Shown piece by piece: positions 28,354 to 53,810 of a DNA stretch of 64,000 bases (position 1 is its first letter; each line of letters begins with the position of its first letter). The notes under the pieces were generated by a model. The model did no database searches. It saw nothing but the letters and a program-made list of their open reading frames with translations, and had not been told where the DNA came from. The stretch is from contig CAIQGE010000035.1 in assembly GCA_903871335.1 (NCBI GenBank), positions 1-64,000 of the forward strand, read 5' to 3'. The stretch is from an uncultured Actinomycetes bacterium. GTDB taxonomy: Bacteria > Actinomycetota > Acidimicrobiia > Acidimicrobiales > RAAP-2. The position numbers and the translations under genes were made by a program.

Positions 28354-29391
28354 TTACAACAGGCCGGCGTTGATGGCCAGTTCTTCGAGGTCCGCTTCGG
28401 GTCGCGCTCCCAGGTGCGTGATGACCTCACCCGCACAGAGCGATCCCAACGCGGCGGCCTCCACCGGATCGGCACCAACCGCCAGACCGTAGAGAAAACC
28501 GGAAGCGAATAGATCGCCCGCTCCGTTTTGGTCGACCACGTCCTCGACCTCGGCGGCGGGGACGTGGACCACGCCGTGCACCGTGGACACTTCGGCGCCG
28601 CGCGGCCCCGTGGTCACGACCGTGAGAATACCCAAGTCCTCAACGGATTCAAATGCTGCGGCCAGCGTTGGGGTGCGAAAGAGCGCCAGCGCCTCGCCTT
28701 CGTTCGCCAACAGCACGTCGACGTCATTGGTGACCAGGTCCAGGAAGTCGTCGTAGTGCCGCTCCACACAAAACGTGTCGGACAATGACAGCGCGACCAG
28801 AGTTTCGTGTTCGTGAGCGCGCGCGACGAGCCGACGAATGGCTTCCTTCGAGGGGGGCAGGTCGAAGAGGTAGCCCTCGATGTAGAGGATCTCTGACCGG
28901 GCGACCAGATCCTCGCGAACGTCCTCGGCCTCCAATTGGTTCGAGGCGCCAAGATACGTCGCCATCGTCCGCTGCGCGTCGTCGGAGACAAAAACGTGGC
29001 ATCGTCCGGTCGCGATCTGTTGACGGGACGCAATCGCGAGGTCGAGTTCGACACCCAGCGATCGCATGTCGTGCGCGAAGACGTCACCGAATTCATCGTC
29101 CGACACTTTGCCAATGAACCCGGAGGTCCCGCCGAGGGCGGCGACGCCGGCGATGGAGTTGGCGACCGAACCTCCCGACATTTGAATGGTGGGACCCATG
29201 GCGCTGTAGATATCGGCTGCTCGTTCGAGATCCACCAAGGTCATGATCCCCTTGGTCAGATCCAGCCGGGCGTGCAGGTCATCGTGATCGCGCACAATGA
29301 CGTCGAGCAGGGCATTGCCGATTCCGGTGACGGCGAGGCGGCCGGGTGCCGGCTTGGCACGGAGTGAGACGGGCGTCGGGGTGGAAGTCAC
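28354..29391 (-). CDS. PfkB-family carbohydrate/nucleoside kinase
   Basis: A 345-residue ribokinase-fold kinase, most like actinobacterial adenosine kinases. It has VTGIGNALLDVIV at the start, SGGSVANSIAGVAALGG, FIGKVSDDEFGDVF, and the catalytic signature VVDQNGAGDLFASGFLYGL. The chosen start GTG 29391 lies 6 nt after TACCCT. The purine or sugar substrate cannot be fixed from sequence alone. Confidence 0.88.
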   Translation of the reverse strand: MTSTPTPVSLRAKPAPGRLAVTGIGNALLDVIVRDHDDLHARLDLTKGIMTLVDLERAADIYSAMGPTIQMSGGSVANSIAGVAALGGTSGFIGKVSDDEFGDVFAHDMRSLGVELDLAIASRQQIATGRCHVFVSDDAQRTMATYLGASNQLEAEDVREDLVARSEILYIEGYLFDLPPSKEAIRRLVARAHEHETLVALSLSDTFCVERHYDDFLDLVTNDVDVLLANEGEALALFRTPTLAAAFESVEDLGILTVVTTGPRGAEVSTVHGVVHVPAAEVEDVVDQNGAGDLFASGFLYGLAVGADPVEAAALGSLCAGEVITHLGARPEADLEELAINAGLL

Positions 29392-29397
29392 CGGACA

Positions 29398-29422
29398 AGG
29401 GTAGATGGTTTCGTCGTAATGT
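29398..29422. promoter_or_regulatory. Compact divergent leaderless promoters
   Basis: Only 39 nt separate the start codons of the PfkB kinase (29391, minus) and the first aminopeptidase (29431, plus). TACCCT (29403-29398, minus) lies 6 nt before the kinase GTG, and TAATGT (29417-29422, plus) lies 8 nt before the aminopeptidase ATG. The two -10 regions are 13 nt apart, back to back. Confidence 0.55.
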
Positions 29423-29430
29423 GGCGAACT

Positions 29431-31950
29431 ATGACAACAAACCCGTACCGCCTCCCTTCGACGGTGGTCCCGTCGGCCTATCGCATCTTTCTGACGCCGG
29501 ACCTCGAGAACTTCACGTTCAGTGGACGGGTGGAGATTGATGTGCACGTGCACGAGAGCGTCACGTCCTTTGCGCTCAACGCCATTGAGTTGGAGTTAGG
29601 TGGCGCCACGCTGACCAGCGGTGGCGTGGCGCATCACTCGACGGACCTGAGCACCAACGAGGAATACCAGACCGCTACGTTCACCTTCGACTCACCCCTC
29701 CCCGTTGGTGACGCCACCATCGAGCTCGCCTTCAAGGGCATCCTGAACGACCAACTCCACGGTTTCTACCGATCCACCTACACCGACGAGTCGGGCACGA
29801 CGCACACGATCGCGACCACGCAGTTCGAATCCACCGACGCGCGTCGAGCCTTCCCCTGTTGGGACGAACCGTCGTTCAAGGCGACCTACCAGGTCAATCT
29901 CACGATTCCGAGCCACCTCGCTGCGTATTCCAATTCCGCGGCCGTGTCCGATACGGATCTCGGGAACGGACAGCGTTCGGTGGTCTTTGCGCCCACGATG
30001 AAGATGTCGACGTACCTGGTTGCGTTCGTGGTCGGTCCCTTTGAGGCCACTGAGCCCATCGACGTCGGCGGCGTGCCCGTGCGCGTCATCTTCCCCATCG
30101 GCAAGGGACGTCTCGCCACGTACGCCCTCGAGGTCGCCGAACACGCACTGTCGTTCTTTAGTGAGTACTTCGATATTCCCTATCCCGGTGACAAGTTCGA
30201 CCTCATCGCCATTCCCGACTTCGCCGCCGGCGCCATGGAGAATCTGGGTCTCGTCACCTTCCGCGAGACCGACTTGCTCATTGACCCCGAGCGCGCGAGC
30301 TTCGCGCAGATTGAGCGCGTCGCGCTCGTCATCAACCACGAGACCGCTCACATGTGGTTCGGTGACCTCGTCACCATGGACTGGTGGGAGGGCATCTGGC
30401 TCAACGAGGCGTTTGCGACCTTCATGGAATCCATTTGCACCGACCACTTCCGCCCCCAGTGGAAGAAGTGGGTCGGATTCAACGCACTGCGCGACATGGC
30501 GATGGCGGTGGACTCCCTTCACTCGACACGACCCATTGAGTACGAAGTCGTCTCGCCCGACGATTGCCGAGGCATGTTCGACGTGCTCACCTATATGAAG
30601 GGTTGCGCCGTGCTGCGCATGCTTGAGCAGTACCTCGGCGAAGAGACCTTCCGTGACGGTATCCGCGCCTACCTGCGCAAGCACAGTTACGCCAACACGG
30701 TCACCCAGGACCTCTGGAACGCCCTGGAGGAGGCCTCGGGCCAACCGGTGGGAACCATCATGAACACGTGGATCCTGCAAGGTGGTTTCCCGCTCGTCTC
30801 CGTGTCCGGTGGAACGGTGCGTCAGGAGTCCTTCCACTTCACCGAGGCTTCGGGCCCTTCGAACATTGGCGAACTCTGGCAGGTCCCAATCCTGTCGCGC
30901 CCGTTGGGAGGCGACAGTGTCGCCAAGCAGTTGCTCAGCGAGTCGAGTGCGTCACTGGCAACGTCCGGCAGCGCCATCGTGAACGCCGGCGGATCGGGCT
31001 TCTACCGCGTGGCCTACGGAACTGCAGAATTGGCCGAGATTTCAGCACACCTGAGCGACCTGTCCGACATCGAGCGTGTACAACTGTTCTCCGACACCAA
31101 TGCGGCGCTGCTCATGGGTCACACCTCGATCGCCGACCTCTTGCGCCTCGCGGCTGGTCTCGGCGACCTGAACGAACCCTCCGCCTGGACGGTCGTGGAG
31201 AACGCCCTCATGATGGTTCGTCGATTGGTCGACGAGGAGGGCGCCGACGTTCTCGCGACCGTCGTTCGACAACTCCTGCGTCCGCAATTCGAGCGTCTCG
31301 GCTGGGACCCCGCTGAGGGTGAGAGCGAGCAGGCGGGCGAGCTGCGTGGGCTCGTCATCCGCCTGCTTGGGGACATCGGCAATGACCGCGAGATCGTAGA
31401 AGAGGCCCTACGTCGTTTCGACGCGAACGAGGTGACCGGCGATTTGGCGCAGGCCATCATGGGCATCGCGGTGCGTGAGAATCGCCCCGGCGACCTCGAC
31501 GTCATGGAGGAGCGACGTCGCTCGGCTGCGACCCCGCAGGACGAGCAGCTCTACCTCTTCGGTCCGGCCGCCACGCCTGATCCCCAGGCCGCGCTCGCGC
31601 TCTTCGAGCGGTGCTTCACCGACATTCGTAACCAGGACGCCCCGTACGTGATCGCCGTTCTCATTCGCAGCCGTATCAACGGCGAGATGATCTGGCGCAA
31701 GTTCCGCGACCGGTTCGACGAGGCCGTGGCGCTGTTCCCCATGGGAATGCCCGCGGCGTCCGTCAGTGGCGTCGCCTCGCTCATCGCCGACCCGGCCCTC
31801 GCGGCGGAGATCCGCACCTTTCACACCGAGCACCCCCTCCCCGTGGCCCAGCGCCAGGTCGAGCAAGTACTCGAACGAATGGACATCGGTGTCGCGTTCG
31901 GCCAGAAGGTCCGGACGCAGTTGACCGCTCAACTTCGGACGCTTCTGTAG
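29431..31950 (+). CDS. pepN: M1 family aminopeptidase N (first copy)
   Basis: An 839-residue zinc aminopeptidase. The N-terminal beta domain starts NPYRLPSTVVPSAYRIFLTP. The substrate-binding GAMENLGLVTFRE precedes the zinc motif HETAHMWFGD (His303, His307) and the downstream Glu in WLNEAFATFME. An ERAP1-like helical C-terminal domain follows. I chose ATG 29431 over one four codons earlier because TAATGT stands 8 nt before it and because the second copy aligns from there. It lies head to tail with a close paralogue. Confidence 0.95.
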   Translation: MTTNPYRLPSTVVPSAYRIFLTPDLENFTFSGRVEIDVHVHESVTSFALNAIELELGGATLTSGGVAHHSTDLSTNEEYQTATFTFDSPLPVGDATIELAFKGILNDQLHGFYRSTYTDESGTTHTIATTQFESTDARRAFPCWDEPSFKATYQVNLTIPSHLAAYSNSAAVSDTDLGNGQRSVVFAPTMKMSTYLVAFVVGPFEATEPIDVGGVPVRVIFPIGKGRLATYALEVAEHALSFFSEYFDIPYPGDKFDLIAIPDFAAGAMENLGLVTFRETDLLIDPERASFAQIERVALVINHETAHMWFGDLVTMDWWEGIWLNEAFATFMESICTDHFRPQWKKWVGFNALRDMAMAVDSLHSTRPIEYEVVSPDDCRGMFDVLTYMKGCAVLRMLEQYLGEETFRDGIRAYLRKHSYANTVTQDLWNALEEASGQPVGTIMNTWILQGGFPLVSVSGGTVRQESFHFTEASGPSNIGELWQVPILSRPLGGDSVAKQLLSESSASLATSGSAIVNAGGSGFYRVAYGTAELAEISAHLSDLSDIERVQLFSDTNAALLMGHTSIADLLRLAAGLGDLNEPSAWTVVENALMMVRRLVDEEGADVLATVVRQLLRPQFERLGWDPAEGESEQAGELRGLVIRLLGDIGNDREIVEEALRRFDANEVTGDLAQAIMGIAVRENRPGDLDVMEERRRSAATPQDEQLYLFGPAATPDPQAALALFERCFTDIRNQDAPYVIAVLIRSRINGEMIWRKFRDRFDEAVALFPMGMPAASVSGVASLIADPALAAEIRTFHTEHPLPVAQRQVEQVLERMDIGVAFGQKVRTQLTAQLRTLL

Positions 31951-31962
31951 ATCCACGTGGCC

Positions 31963-31998
31963 GGACATGGTGTCGGGGGTAGCCTCGACACCATGTCC
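31963..31998 (+). promoter_or_regulatory. Perfect 13-bp inverted repeat over the start codon of the second aminopeptidase gene
   Basis: GGACATGGTGTCG (31963-31975) and CGACACCATGTCC (31986-31998) pair perfectly across a 10-nt loop. The loop ends in TAGCCT (31980-31985), which lies 7 nt before ATG 31993, so the 3' arm contains the start codon. The repeat begins 12 nt after the stop of the first copy. No U-run follows, so a simple terminator is less likely. Confidence 0.75.
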
Positions 31999-34500
31999 GC
32001 TACGAAAACCAACCCGTACCGCCTGCCGACCGACGTCATTCCGACGAATTATCGTCTGGCGCTCACGCCCAATATCGACGCCGCCACTTTCGACGGTTCG
32101 GTCACGATCGCGATCGAGATCGCCATTCCCGGCTCCAGCCTCCGGTTCAATGCCGTCGACCTCGAACTCTCGTCCATCACGCTGACCGACGCATCGGGCG
32201 CGAGCCACGTGGGTTCCGCGGAACTGGACAACGACTTCGAGTGGGCGACGGTCACCTTCGCCGCACCCTTCGTTGCGGGTCCCGCCACGTTGGACATCAC
32301 GTATACGGGAGAATTGAACGACAAACTGGTCGGCTTTTACAAGTCGACCTACGTCGACGCGGCAGGCGAGACCCAGTCAATCGCCACGACGCAGTTTGAG
32401 GCCACCGACGCCCGTCGCGCCTTCCCCTGTTGGGACGAGCCCACGTTCAAGGCGACCTACGACATCACCTTGACCATTCCGAGCGAGTTGTCGGCGTACT
32501 CCAACTCCCCCGTCGTGGCCGACCGTGACCTCGGCGACGGGCGACGCGAAGTCACTTTTGGTACCACGATGAAGATGTCGACGTACCTCGTCGCCTTCGT
32601 CGTTGGTCCGTTTGAAGAAACACACGTGGTCGACGTGCGCGGTACGCCATTGCGGGTGGTGTACCCCGTGGGCAAGGGCCACTTGGCCCCGTTCGCCCTC
32701 GAGATCGGCGAGTTCGCCCTCGGGTTCTTCACCGACTATTTCAATATTCCCTACCCCGGCGAAAAGCTCGACCTCATTGCCATTCCCGACTTCGCGTTCG
32801 GGGCCATGGAAAACCTCGGTTGCGTCACGTTCCGGGAGACCGCCCTCTTGGTCGACCCCAGCTCCGCGTCGCTCGCCGAAATCGAGCGAGTCGCCGACGT
32901 CGTCGCTCACGAAATTGCGCACATGTGGTTCGGTGACCTCGTCACGATGCAGTGGTGGGAAGGCATCTGGCTGAACGAGGCCTTCGCCACGTTCATGGAG
33001 ACGCTCTGCGTCCACCATTTCCGTCCCCAGTGGAAGAAGTGGTTGTCCTTCGGCACGTTCAAGGACATGGCCCTTCAGATCGACGGCCTGCACTCGACTC
33101 GACCCATTGAGTACGAAGTGATCGCGCCGGCGGATATGCGCGGCATGTTCGACTTGTTGACCTACGAAAAGGGTGGATCTGTCCTGCGCATGCTGGAGCA
33201 GTACCTCGGCGAGGAAACCTTCCGCGACGGCATTCGCCTGTACCTCACTCGTCACGCCTACGGCAACACGGTGACAACCGACCTGTGGGACGCGCTCGAG
33301 GAATCCTCCGGCCAACCGGTTCGCGACATGATGAACACCTGGATCCTTCAGGGTGGGCACCCTCTCGTGACCTACGCCGACGGACACCTCACGCAGGCAC
33401 CCTTCGCCTACGGCCCACGCACGGGCGAGAGCGCCATCGGGACGCACTGGCTCACCCCGGTGCTCACGCGACCCATTGAGTCGCACGAGATCACCAAGCA
33501 CCTCCTCGCCAACGACGCCATCGCGGTGCCGACCGATGGTCCCCTCGTCGTCAACGCCGGAGGATCGGGCGTGTACCGCACCCGCTACGGCACCGCCGAG
33601 CTCGCGGGCATCGCCGCACACCTGTCCGAACTCGACGAACTCGAACGCACGGTCCTGGTGGCCGACGGATGGGCCGCCTTGTTCGCCAATCAGATCACGT
33701 GGAATGATTTCCTCGCTCTCGCGCGCGGCCTTCGAGATCAGAATGAACCCGCCACCTGGACCACGGTCGCCCAAGCCTTCGACTACGCGTTGCGCGTCGC
33801 CAGCGATGCGCAACGTGACGGACTCGTCGTCGTGGTGCGTGAGATCTTTGGTCCCCAATTCGACCGCCTCGGTTGGGACGCGGTGGCGGGCGAGAGCGAA
33901 CTCGCTCCCCAGGTGCGCGCCATCGCCATTGGCGCTCTGGGCACCCACGGACGCGTCAGTGAGATTCAAGAGGAAGCCCAGCGCCGATTCGACGCGGGCG
34001 CTCTCGACGGTGACCTCGCTCGAGCGATCCTCCGCATCGTCGCGGGCTCGGGACGCGACGGCGTCTACGACCTGTTCCTCGACGGTTATCGCCACGCCGC
34101 GAACCCCCAGGACAAGCAGCGATTCCAGTGGGGCCTTGCGGACTTCGACGACGAAGGCCTCGCTCTCGACGCGGCCGAAAAGTGTTTCAGCGAATTCCGA
34201 GGGCAGGACGCCCCCATTGTGCTCGGCCTCCTGTCGCGCAACCGCGTCACGGGACCTGCGGTGTGGCGTTACTTGACCTCCCGCTGGGACGACGCGCTCG
34301 CGCTGTTTCCGCCGAATGTGCATTCGCGCATGTGCGGGGGCATCAGTACGTTCATTGCGGATCGGAACTTCGCGGCCGAGGTGGAAGCCTTCCACGGCGC
34401 CCACCCGATCGCGGGTGAACAGCGCACCATTGACCAGGGTCTCGAGCGCATGCGCGTGGGCTTGGACTTTGGTGACGCACTGCGCTCCCAGTTGGGCTAG
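31993..34500 (+). CDS. pepN: M1 family aminopeptidase N (second copy)
   Basis: An 835-residue paralogue of the preceding protein, alike throughout. Shared strings include ATDARRAFPCWDEPTFKATY (one residue differs in copy one), GAMENLG, HEIAHMWFGD (His306) and WLNEAFATFME. The C-terminal ERAP1-like domain diverges more. The ATG at 31993 sits in the 3' arm of a perfect inverted repeat and 7 nt after TAGCCT. The next gene starts directly after its stop. Two copies may differ in substrate range or expression. Confidence 0.95.
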   Translation: MSATKTNPYRLPTDVIPTNYRLALTPNIDAATFDGSVTIAIEIAIPGSSLRFNAVDLELSSITLTDASGASHVGSAELDNDFEWATVTFAAPFVAGPATLDITYTGELNDKLVGFYKSTYVDAAGETQSIATTQFEATDARRAFPCWDEPTFKATYDITLTIPSELSAYSNSPVVADRDLGDGRREVTFGTTMKMSTYLVAFVVGPFEETHVVDVRGTPLRVVYPVGKGHLAPFALEIGEFALGFFTDYFNIPYPGEKLDLIAIPDFAFGAMENLGCVTFRETALLVDPSSASLAEIERVADVVAHEIAHMWFGDLVTMQWWEGIWLNEAFATFMETLCVHHFRPQWKKWLSFGTFKDMALQIDGLHSTRPIEYEVIAPADMRGMFDLLTYEKGGSVLRMLEQYLGEETFRDGIRLYLTRHAYGNTVTTDLWDALEESSGQPVRDMMNTWILQGGHPLVTYADGHLTQAPFAYGPRTGESAIGTHWLTPVLTRPIESHEITKHLLANDAIAVPTDGPLVVNAGGSGVYRTRYGTAELAGIAAHLSELDELERTVLVADGWAALFANQITWNDFLALARGLRDQNEPATWTTVAQAFDYALRVASDAQRDGLVVVVREIFGPQFDRLGWDAVAGESELAPQVRAIAIGALGTHGRVSEIQEEAQRRFDAGALDGDLARAILRIVAGSGRDGVYDLFLDGYRHAANPQDKQRFQWGLADFDDEGLALDAAEKCFSEFRGQDAPIVLGLLSRNRVTGPAVWRYLTSRWDDALALFPPNVHSRMCGGISTFIADRNFAAEVEAFHGAHPIAGEQRTIDQGLERMRVGLDFGDALRSQLG

Positions 34501-52824: not shown

Positions 52825-53810
52825 GCGCCCAACAACTTTCGACGACTACGTGAGGTAATAGCACGAGCCAAGAGGTTCACGGCCCCGACGATGACCATCA
52901 GCACGAGGGCCAGACACGACAGAATGCCGAAACCCTGCGTGCCGGAATAGTTGCCGAAGTTGGCGGCAATTTCCGACGCCAGCGTCGCGCCCGTGTTGAA
53001 AGGGTTGAAAGGCCACGGGTGTGCCGCGTTGACGCCTCCCAACAGGAACACCATGGCAATGGTCTCGCCGAGCGCACGACCGGTGGCTAATACCGCGGCG
53101 CCGAGGAGTCCCGTTCGTGAGGAGGGGAGCACCACCTTCAGCAGGACCTGGCTTCGTGTGGCGCCGACTGACAGTCCACCCTCGATGAGCTCGTTGGGGA
53201 CCGCCATGAAGACGTCACGCGAGATGGCAGCCATCGTCGGCAAAATCATGACGCCGAGCACGATGACGCCGAGCAGAAGATTGGAGCCACTCTGCGCGAT
53301 GCCGTTAAAGGGCCAACGACCACCCGTCAAACTGGCCAGCCACGGCTGCAGGTGGTTACCGAGCCACGGGCCGATAACGAGGAATCCCCACGTGCCGTAG
53401 ATGATCGAGGGTACGACGGCCAGCAACTCGACCAGTGAAGAAATAACCAAACGGAAGCGCCGAGGAATGAGGTAGGTAATGGCGAGAGCGGAGCCGATGC
53501 CAATGGGTACGGCAAACACCAGGGCGAATCCGGTCGTAACGAAAGTACCGAGGATCAGGGGGAGCGCGCCGTATTGGCCGGCGCTGAAGTTCCAGTCGGA
53601 TCCGTAGAAGAAGTGCCAACCCACGATTCGCCAACCGGGAATCGAGGCCTTGACGATCGAGACAAAAAACAACGCCAGAATGGCAGCTACAGCAATCGCG
53701 ATCCCGATGAGGATCGAACGATACGGAGTATCAGAACTGGTCGGGAGCTTGCGCTCCCGACCAGTTCTGTTCTCCAGAGGTTCAGTCGGAGAAGCAACAT
53801 CTACTGACAT
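52821..53810 (-). CDS. pstC: Phosphate ABC transporter permease PstC
   Basis: A 329-residue, six-helix permease. It has LILGTFVTTGFALVFAVPIGIGSALAITYL, LLAVVPSIIYGTWGFLVIGPWL and an EAA region PNELIEGGLSVGATRSQVLLKVVLPSSRTGLLGAAVLATGRALGETIA. The cytoplasmic N-terminus (about 1-28) is encoded over a perfect 17-bp inverted repeat with a GCAA loop at 53732-53769. It lies 41 nt after pstS. Confidence 0.95.
   Translation of the reverse strand: MSVDVASPTEPLENRTGRERKLPTSSDTPYRSILIGIAIAVAAILALFFVSIVKASIPGWRIVGWHFFYGSDWNFSAGQYGALPLILGTFVTTGFALVFAVPIGIGSALAITYLIPRRFRLVISSLVELLAVVPSIIYGTWGFLVIGPWLGNHLQPWLASLTGGRWPFNGIAQSGSNLLLGVIVLGVMILPTMAAISRDVFMAVPNELIEGGLSVGATRSQVLLKVVLPSSRTGLLGAAVLATGRALGETIAMVFLLGGVNAAHPWPFNPFNTGATLASEIAANFGNYSGTQGFGILSCLALVLMVIVGAVNLLARAITSRSRRKLLGA
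53732..53769 (-). promoter_or_regulatory. Perfect 17-bp hairpin with GNRA loop in the start of pstC
   Basis: On the plus strand CAGAACTGGTCGGGAGC (53732-53748), TTGC, GCTCCCGACCAGTTCTG (53753-53769). In the pst mRNA the loop reads GCAA, a GNRA tetraloop closed by C-G. It spans codons about 14-26 of pstC. There is no U-run after it, so a simple terminator is unlikely. Confidence 0.85.

Follow-up and report, generated by a model that had tools for sequence, protein, structure and literature searches.

The start codon of a presumably leaderless aminopeptidase gene is situated in one arm of a long, perfect inverted repeat that begins just past the stop codon of an upstream paralogue. The dyad is real, and in our judgement the chances are about even that the hairpin which it could form acts as an insulator, i.e. 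that it would shield the downstream gene (copy 2) from transcription that reads through from the upstream gene (copy 1). The locus, from an uncultured actinobacterium, lies in a window of 64,000 nucleotides, by which we mean the whole stretch of DNA that was analysed, and its features are collected in Table 1.

Table 1. Features at the junction of the two aminopeptidase genes (window coordinates).
Feature	Coordinates	Strand	Basis
Copy 1, M1-family aminopeptidase paralogue	29431..31950	+	Pfam domains; 55% identical to copy 2
Intergenic spacer, 42 nt, with 5' arm and -10 box	31951..31992	+	sequence
5' arm, perfect 14 bp	31962..31975	+	sequence; RNA stem uses 31963-31978 and 31956-31961
TAGCCT, presumed -10 box of copy-2 promoter	31980..31985	+	sequence; TANNNT enriched 6-9 nt before the genome's starts
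3' arm with ATG 31993 and codon 2	31986..31999	+	sequence; RNA stem 31983-32004
Copy 2, M1-family aminopeptidase, ATG 31993	31993..34500	+	Pfam; homologues align from this ATG

Results

Dyad and RNA fold at the start of copy 2

The original prediction described a perfect 13-bp inverted repeat with the arms GGACATGGTGTCG (31963-31975) and CGACACCATGTCC (31986-31998). Both arms are present and the repeat is in fact longer than claimed, since the outer pair C31962/G31999 is also perfect; the arms thus extend to 14 bp and are separated by a 10-nt spacer. TAGCCT was likewise found where it had been placed, 7 nt upstream of the ATG. The statement that this -10 box is held in the loop is correct for TAG, but in the RNA fold CCT forms the top of the 3' arm.

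When the segment 31955-32005 is folded as RNA, a single stem of 22 pairs is predicted, with one bulge (C31962) and a 4-nt GUAG loop. Positions 31963-31978 pair with 31983-31998, including one G.U, and 31956-31961 pair with 31999-32004, so that the AUG at 31993 is paired within the predicted stem. The fold energy is -42.1 kcal/mol (z -9.07), and none of 200 shuffles was as good. Perfect stems (loop 3-20) reached at most 12 bp in 20 copies of the window simulated by a second-order Markov model.

The exact dyad is present in a single copy in the 2.23-Mb genome, which speaks against a repeat element. An Rfam search covering 31800-32200 gave no match at the gathering score, and one chance-level match (14 bits versus 80). 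A loose pattern search with CATGGYG..CRCCATG in 99 genomes and a 3-mismatch search for the start region both gave many matches; those listed, a part of the total, resembled noise or coding sequence and were not used as evidence. By eye, CATGGYG..CRCCATG (spacer 4-34 nt) is commoner than the reversed pattern in many of the 99 genomes, an excess that is perhaps due to codon usage. The genus-wide pattern search also returned a palindrome, CATGGTGTGTCTCCC..GGGAGACACACCATG, whose 15-bp arms match perfectly around a 3-nt spacer, at G012:C69:7752-7784.

One perfect stem in the window exceeds the dyad. It is a 17-bp hairpin with a 4-nt loop at 53732-53769, within the 5' portion of the reading frame of an ABC-transporter permease (PF00528; 52821-53810, minus strand) whose gene directly follows a binding-protein gene (PF12849). 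This hairpin may separate the expression of the permease and the binding-protein genes.

The two peptidase genes

Both copies carry the Pfam domains Peptidase_M1_N, Peptidase_M1 and ERAP1_C. Copy 1 ends with the stop codon TAG at 31948-31950, and the perfect dyad starts 11 nt downstream of it. A homologue is present in 96 of the 99 genomes of the genus that were searched. A tree was calculated for 49 homologues, comprising the members of nine tandem pairs (18 genes), 7 dispersed second copies, 19 genes that are single-copy or lie at the main locus, and 5 outgroups, and here copy 1 and copy 2 fall into two old clades. Copy 1 clusters with the second copies that are dispersed in other genomes (15 tips, support 1.0). 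The tandem second copies of the eight pairs other than G001 form a 9-tip clade with the single-copy gene of G013 (support 0.98). This clade nests within that of the widespread gene, where the two G001 copies occupy another position.

By eye, the region upstream of copy 1 looks like its counterpart at the single-copy genes, which suggests that copy 1 has kept the ancestral promoter and that a separate promoter within the 42-nt gap serves copy 2. We note that a block of the form GTCAC..TAGCGAGCGTAG is seen about 12-30 nt upstream of the -10 box in most of the aminopeptidase rows read from the genus, and that a diverged version precedes copy 1 (about 29380-29433), where there is also a divergent pfkB-type kinase gene. 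This block may be a regulatory site.

A conserved N-terminal extension of copy 2 from GTG 31957 was considered and rejected. The frame is open in the window, yet a 1-nt indel between the 5' arm and the ATG shifts it in the relative G006 when compared with the window genome (G000), so it is not as coding sequence that the 5' arm is preserved.

The presumed leaderless promoter of copy 2

Promoter spacing was surveyed in 160 genes, taken with a simple gene caller from the window and from 12 other stretches of the same genome. TANNNT stands exactly 6 nt before the start in 21 of them (13.1%), and 7, 8 and 9 nt before the start in 3, 3 and 4 genes, respectively; among 1036 internal ATGs, 0.1% have the motif at 6 nt. 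Judged by TANNNT spacing in these 160 genes, leaderless-type promoters are common in the source genome. A leaderless-type start was defined as TANNNT placed 6 or 7 nt before the ATG or GTG of an ORF of at least 150 codons, and copy 2 belongs to this class with a gap of 7 nt, as compared with 6 nt for the genome's main peak. The spacing is compatible with a message that would be leaderless or would have a leader of one base. No Shine-Dalgarno-like sequence was read close to the copy-2 AUG, so internal initiation might be poor even in the absence of the hairpin.

As regards published signals, one report gives TANNNT, located some 12 bp ahead of the translation start, as the mark of bacterial leaderless genes (PMC3160421), and leaderless transcripts are described as common in M. 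tuberculosis (PMC3898074). Actinobacterial leaderless genes are thus similar to copy 2 in having TANNNT before the start. Ordinary leaderless starts differ from copy 2, however, in having no such hairpin. This was seen in a sample of 69 leaderless-type starts from 562 kb, comprising the window, 12 stretches of its own genome and 20 stretches of eight relatives: perfect enclosing stems were at most 9 bp long at 68 starts, and the one start with a longer stem is the window locus. In the same sample 30 of the 69 starts lie directly downstream of a same-strand ORF. In the folding comparison described below, leaderless starts close behind a same-strand gene have a mean z of -0.67 (n=9), none being below -2. 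The idea that such hairpins are a general habit of the leaderless genes of the genus is therefore unsupported in the sample.

Conservation of the arms in the nearest relative

The nearest relative, G006 (CAIQPR010000057.1), has a perfect 19-bp stem at the same place. Covariation of the two arms in relatives with both copies had been proposed as a check, and in G006 the outcome is positive, on two sequences only. In the two-row alignment of the window and G006, 15 of the 19 pairs are invariant, three are changed on both sides, one is unpaired in the window and none is changed on one side only. Two of the double substitutions are secure and the outermost of the three hinges on the alignment of the flank; similarly, one of the 15 invariant pairs (A-U in G006) aligns with a gap on the window side, where it would read G.U if the indel were put in the loop. 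Pairing stands at 97% in register and falls to 27-49% when the partner is slid by 1-3 columns. With two sequences shuffling is a weak control, as 58 of 500 shuffles match the covariation count. The four-fold sites of copy 2 are 45.6% identical between G000 and G006 (n=371), against which the arms and the -10 box are strongly kept. Codon 2, which is part of the 3' arm, differs by a synonymous change (TCC to TCT).

Hairpins at the other tandem pairs

The start of the second copy was read in nine tandem pairs, i.e. G000 (the window), G006, G016, G070, G079, G105, G116, G122 and G001. Perfect 13-bp arms are present in G122, and an interrupted stem of at least 16 pairs in G016. In both cases the arms are unrelated in sequence to those of the window, they are placed around TAGCCT and the start, and the start is situated at or in the hairpin loop.

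Folding of 66-nt segments gave z values below -3 at four of the nine tandem second-copy starts (G006 -8.9, G000 -7.2, G122 -4.5, G016 -3.7), as compared with one of 75 other homologue starts and two of 160 genes of the window's own genome. The 75 comparison starts are a part of the homologues other than tandem second copies, mostly single-copy or main-locus genes, and they include genes from genomes with a dispersed second copy, the first copy of G001 and a few contig-end fragments, which were not scored as tandem as their upstream neighbour is unknown. The set excludes dispersed second copies, the first copies of tandem pairs other than G001, and the genes of G064, G066 (which has N), G112, G117 and G119. 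The results for G000, G006 and G122 are stable across five segment sizes. The value of G016 depends on the segment, with z between -2.5 and -4.3 across five sizes and -1.67 in an 85-nt segment.

An unusual hairpin was not found by folding z against shuffles at the second copies of G070, G079, G105 and G001, and G116 is marginal (z -1.2 to -2.6). Imperfect hairpins that had been picked out by eye in G105, G116, G079 and G070 proved no stronger than shuffles or swapped arms, G116 again being marginal. As four of the nine pairs show nothing and one is marginal, the hairpin is not universal. In a second collection an M1 gene was found upstream at 4 of 28 loci (L032, L033, L041 and L044). Two of these, L032 and L033, are the contigs of G006 and G070 again; at the two more distant ones, L041 and L044, no unusual hairpin was found (0 of 2).

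The fit between the arms was examined by swapping them among eight tandem second copies, G001 being left out. The mean energy was -22.4 kcal/mol with own arms versus -15.0 kcal/mol with swapped arms (permutation p 0.0018, n=8), and the own arm was the best in both row and column in only four of the eight. The p value becomes 0.013 without G006, 0.088 without both G000 and G006, and 0.37 if G122 is left out as well. These drops, together with the z values of the individual loci, confine the evidence to two lineages, G000/G006 and G122/G016, which flank the copy-2 clade on either side.

Discussion

Selection or template switching

The strongest alternative to insulation is a mutational origin, i.e. 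a palindrome that was created and is kept perfect by template-switch (quasi-palindrome) mutation and has little or no function. If one arm served as the template for the other when the DNA is replicated, the arms would be perfect and would show apparent double substitutions, with no need for selection. Template switching has been reported to produce and preserve hairpins and to account for compensatory changes of several bases (PMC8794818). Such a process would fit the fact that the arms are perfect, and not merely stable, in G000, G006 and G122, and that the stems are replaced from one lineage to the next and absent from several tandem pairs. Nevertheless, we hold it to be unlikely as the explanation. 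The arms and the -10 box were kept between G000 and G006 in spite of the low identity of the four-fold sites, the change in codon 2 is synonymous, and strong stems concentrate at tandem second copies, being nearly absent from the other homologue starts and the genomic starts scored above.

Terminator, operator and coupling

The hairpin might also belong to copy 1, as a factor-independent terminator or 3'-end stabiliser that overlaps the copy-2 promoter by chance in the short gap. The 5' arm starts 11, 6, 5 and 6 nt past the copy-1 stop in G000, G006, G016 and G122, respectively, and by eye seven of nine other perfect stems of at least 14 bp in 272 kb of the genome are at or just after a called stop, so the position of the stem would suit a terminator as well. 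The base composition points the other way. A clear T-run is missing from the ends of all four stems, where any 8 bases contain at most 2-3 T, which makes a terminator less likely. In 14 other long hairpins, picked from 20 listed, 13 have 3-7 T in 8 bases and one has 2 (5 on the reverse strand); these are forward-strand counts whichever strand terminates, and the two ranges touch at 3. A terminator scan found none at the dyad. On this evidence we consider a role in the termination or stabilisation of the copy-1 message quite improbable.

A dyad operator had been offered as a second possibility in the original prediction. Here a dimeric regulator would bind the dyad over the -10 box and repress copy 2. 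The perfect symmetry centred near the -10 box is what one would expect of such a site, and G006 keeps a similar half site with symmetric changes. An operator shared by the pairs is made less likely, however, by the arms of G122 and G016, which have no sequence in common with those of G000 and G006. Moreover, operator half sites are usually shorter than 14-19 bp, the dyad has no second copy in the genome and the 12-base half site GACATGGTGYCG occurs once outside it. We regard an operator as very improbable.

Translational coupling seems the least credible of these readings, to the point that we hardly expect it to hold. A ribosome that finishes copy 1 would melt the base of the hairpin, open copy 2 and thereby tie its translation to that of copy 1, which the short distance between the copy-1 stop and the 5' arm (5-11 nt in the four hairpin-bearing pairs) would allow. 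The footprint of a terminating ribosome, however, would reach only the base of a stem of 17-22 bp, and coupling has no need for copy 2 to carry a -10 box of its own at the tip of the hairpin.

A proposed insulator between the two copies

We return to the insulator as the preferred reading. In a message entering from copy 1, the segment just past the copy-1 stop would fold onto the start of copy 2, and the folded RNA would hide the AUG, also from ribosomes re-initiating after termination on copy 1. With the -10 box at the tip of the hairpin, the gene's own transcript would begin at or beside the AUG, would not contain the 5' arm and would stay open, so that copy-2 protein would be made only from its own leaderless message. 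We infer the transcription start, the existence of the read-through RNA and the effect on translation.

The predicted folds agree with this AUG switch, which the original prediction had put forward, in pairing the AUG on the read-through RNA and freeing it on the leaderless RNA; the switch does not extend to the several tandem pairs that have no hairpin. In G000 the three AUG bases are predicted to be unpaired with a probability of 0.001 or less on the read-through RNA, and of 1.0, 1.0 and 0.99 on the leaderless RNA. The corresponding predictions for G006 are 0.001 or less and 1.0, 0.80 and 0.36. For the read-through RNA of G122 and G016, the prediction has firm pairing at the G of the AUG alone and leaves the A and U mostly unpaired, so it is only in G000 and G006 that the expression "hides the AUG" can be taken literally.

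A broader version of the insulator would be a recurrent, sequence-free device for leaderless genes, in which the architecture is kept and the letters of the stem turn over. Lineages would rebuild the 5' arm at tandem aminopeptidase pairs, perhaps by template-switch copying of the start region; any message from the upstream paralogue would then mask the downstream start, and the -10 box at the tip would let the leaderless message escape. We put this forward tentatively and think it doubtful.

Comparison with known systems

The logic of insulation is already known, and the leaderless setting between tandem paralogues is a variant of it. In T4, the longer early transcripts of gene e, soc, 49 and I-TevI fold and sequester the Shine-Dalgarno sequence and/or the AUG; for gene e the structure in the longer transcripts cuts lysozyme synthesis 100-fold, whereas the late-promoter transcripts, in which the 5' part of this structure is missing, are translated well (PMC3014915). 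Gene e and, by prediction, copy 2 are alike in that a hairpin of the long transcript pairs the start region; the transcript from the presumed promoter of copy 2, with TAGCCT 7 nt before the ATG, may likewise be free of the 5' arm. Copy 2 differs in being a cellular gene with a tandem paralogue upstream, in being presumably leaderless without a Shine-Dalgarno sequence, in having a housekeeping-type -10 box in place of a phage late promoter, and in being known from sequence alone. For B. subtilis sigG the same logic has been proposed, with a hairpin of 20 bp or more on the read-through RNA (PMC5942855). Unlike copy 2, sigG is equipped with a ribosome-binding site and an additional short hairpin, and the genes upstream are spoIIGA-sigE. 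Another parallel is the fold-back inhibition of IS10 and IS50, in which read-through RNA from outside hides the transposase start. The likeness to copy 2 ends there, as these are mobile elements with a Shine-Dalgarno start. Among the titles listed in a literature search on leaderless starts, read-through and sequestering hairpins, whose scope left out most subscription journals, no such leaderless case was found. The esxB-esxA paper PMC11728522 proved irrelevant to the present locus.

Significance

The unrelated stems in the same place are a natural case that is useful for weighing selection against template-switch upkeep of perfect hairpins. If the insulator reading is true, a leaderless gene without a ribosome-binding site would be kept silent on the messages of its upstream neighbour. 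With the 5' arm encoded directly upstream of the -10 box, protein output would depend on nothing but which promoter is used, and two diverged tandem paralogues would be controlled separately within a gap of 42 nt.
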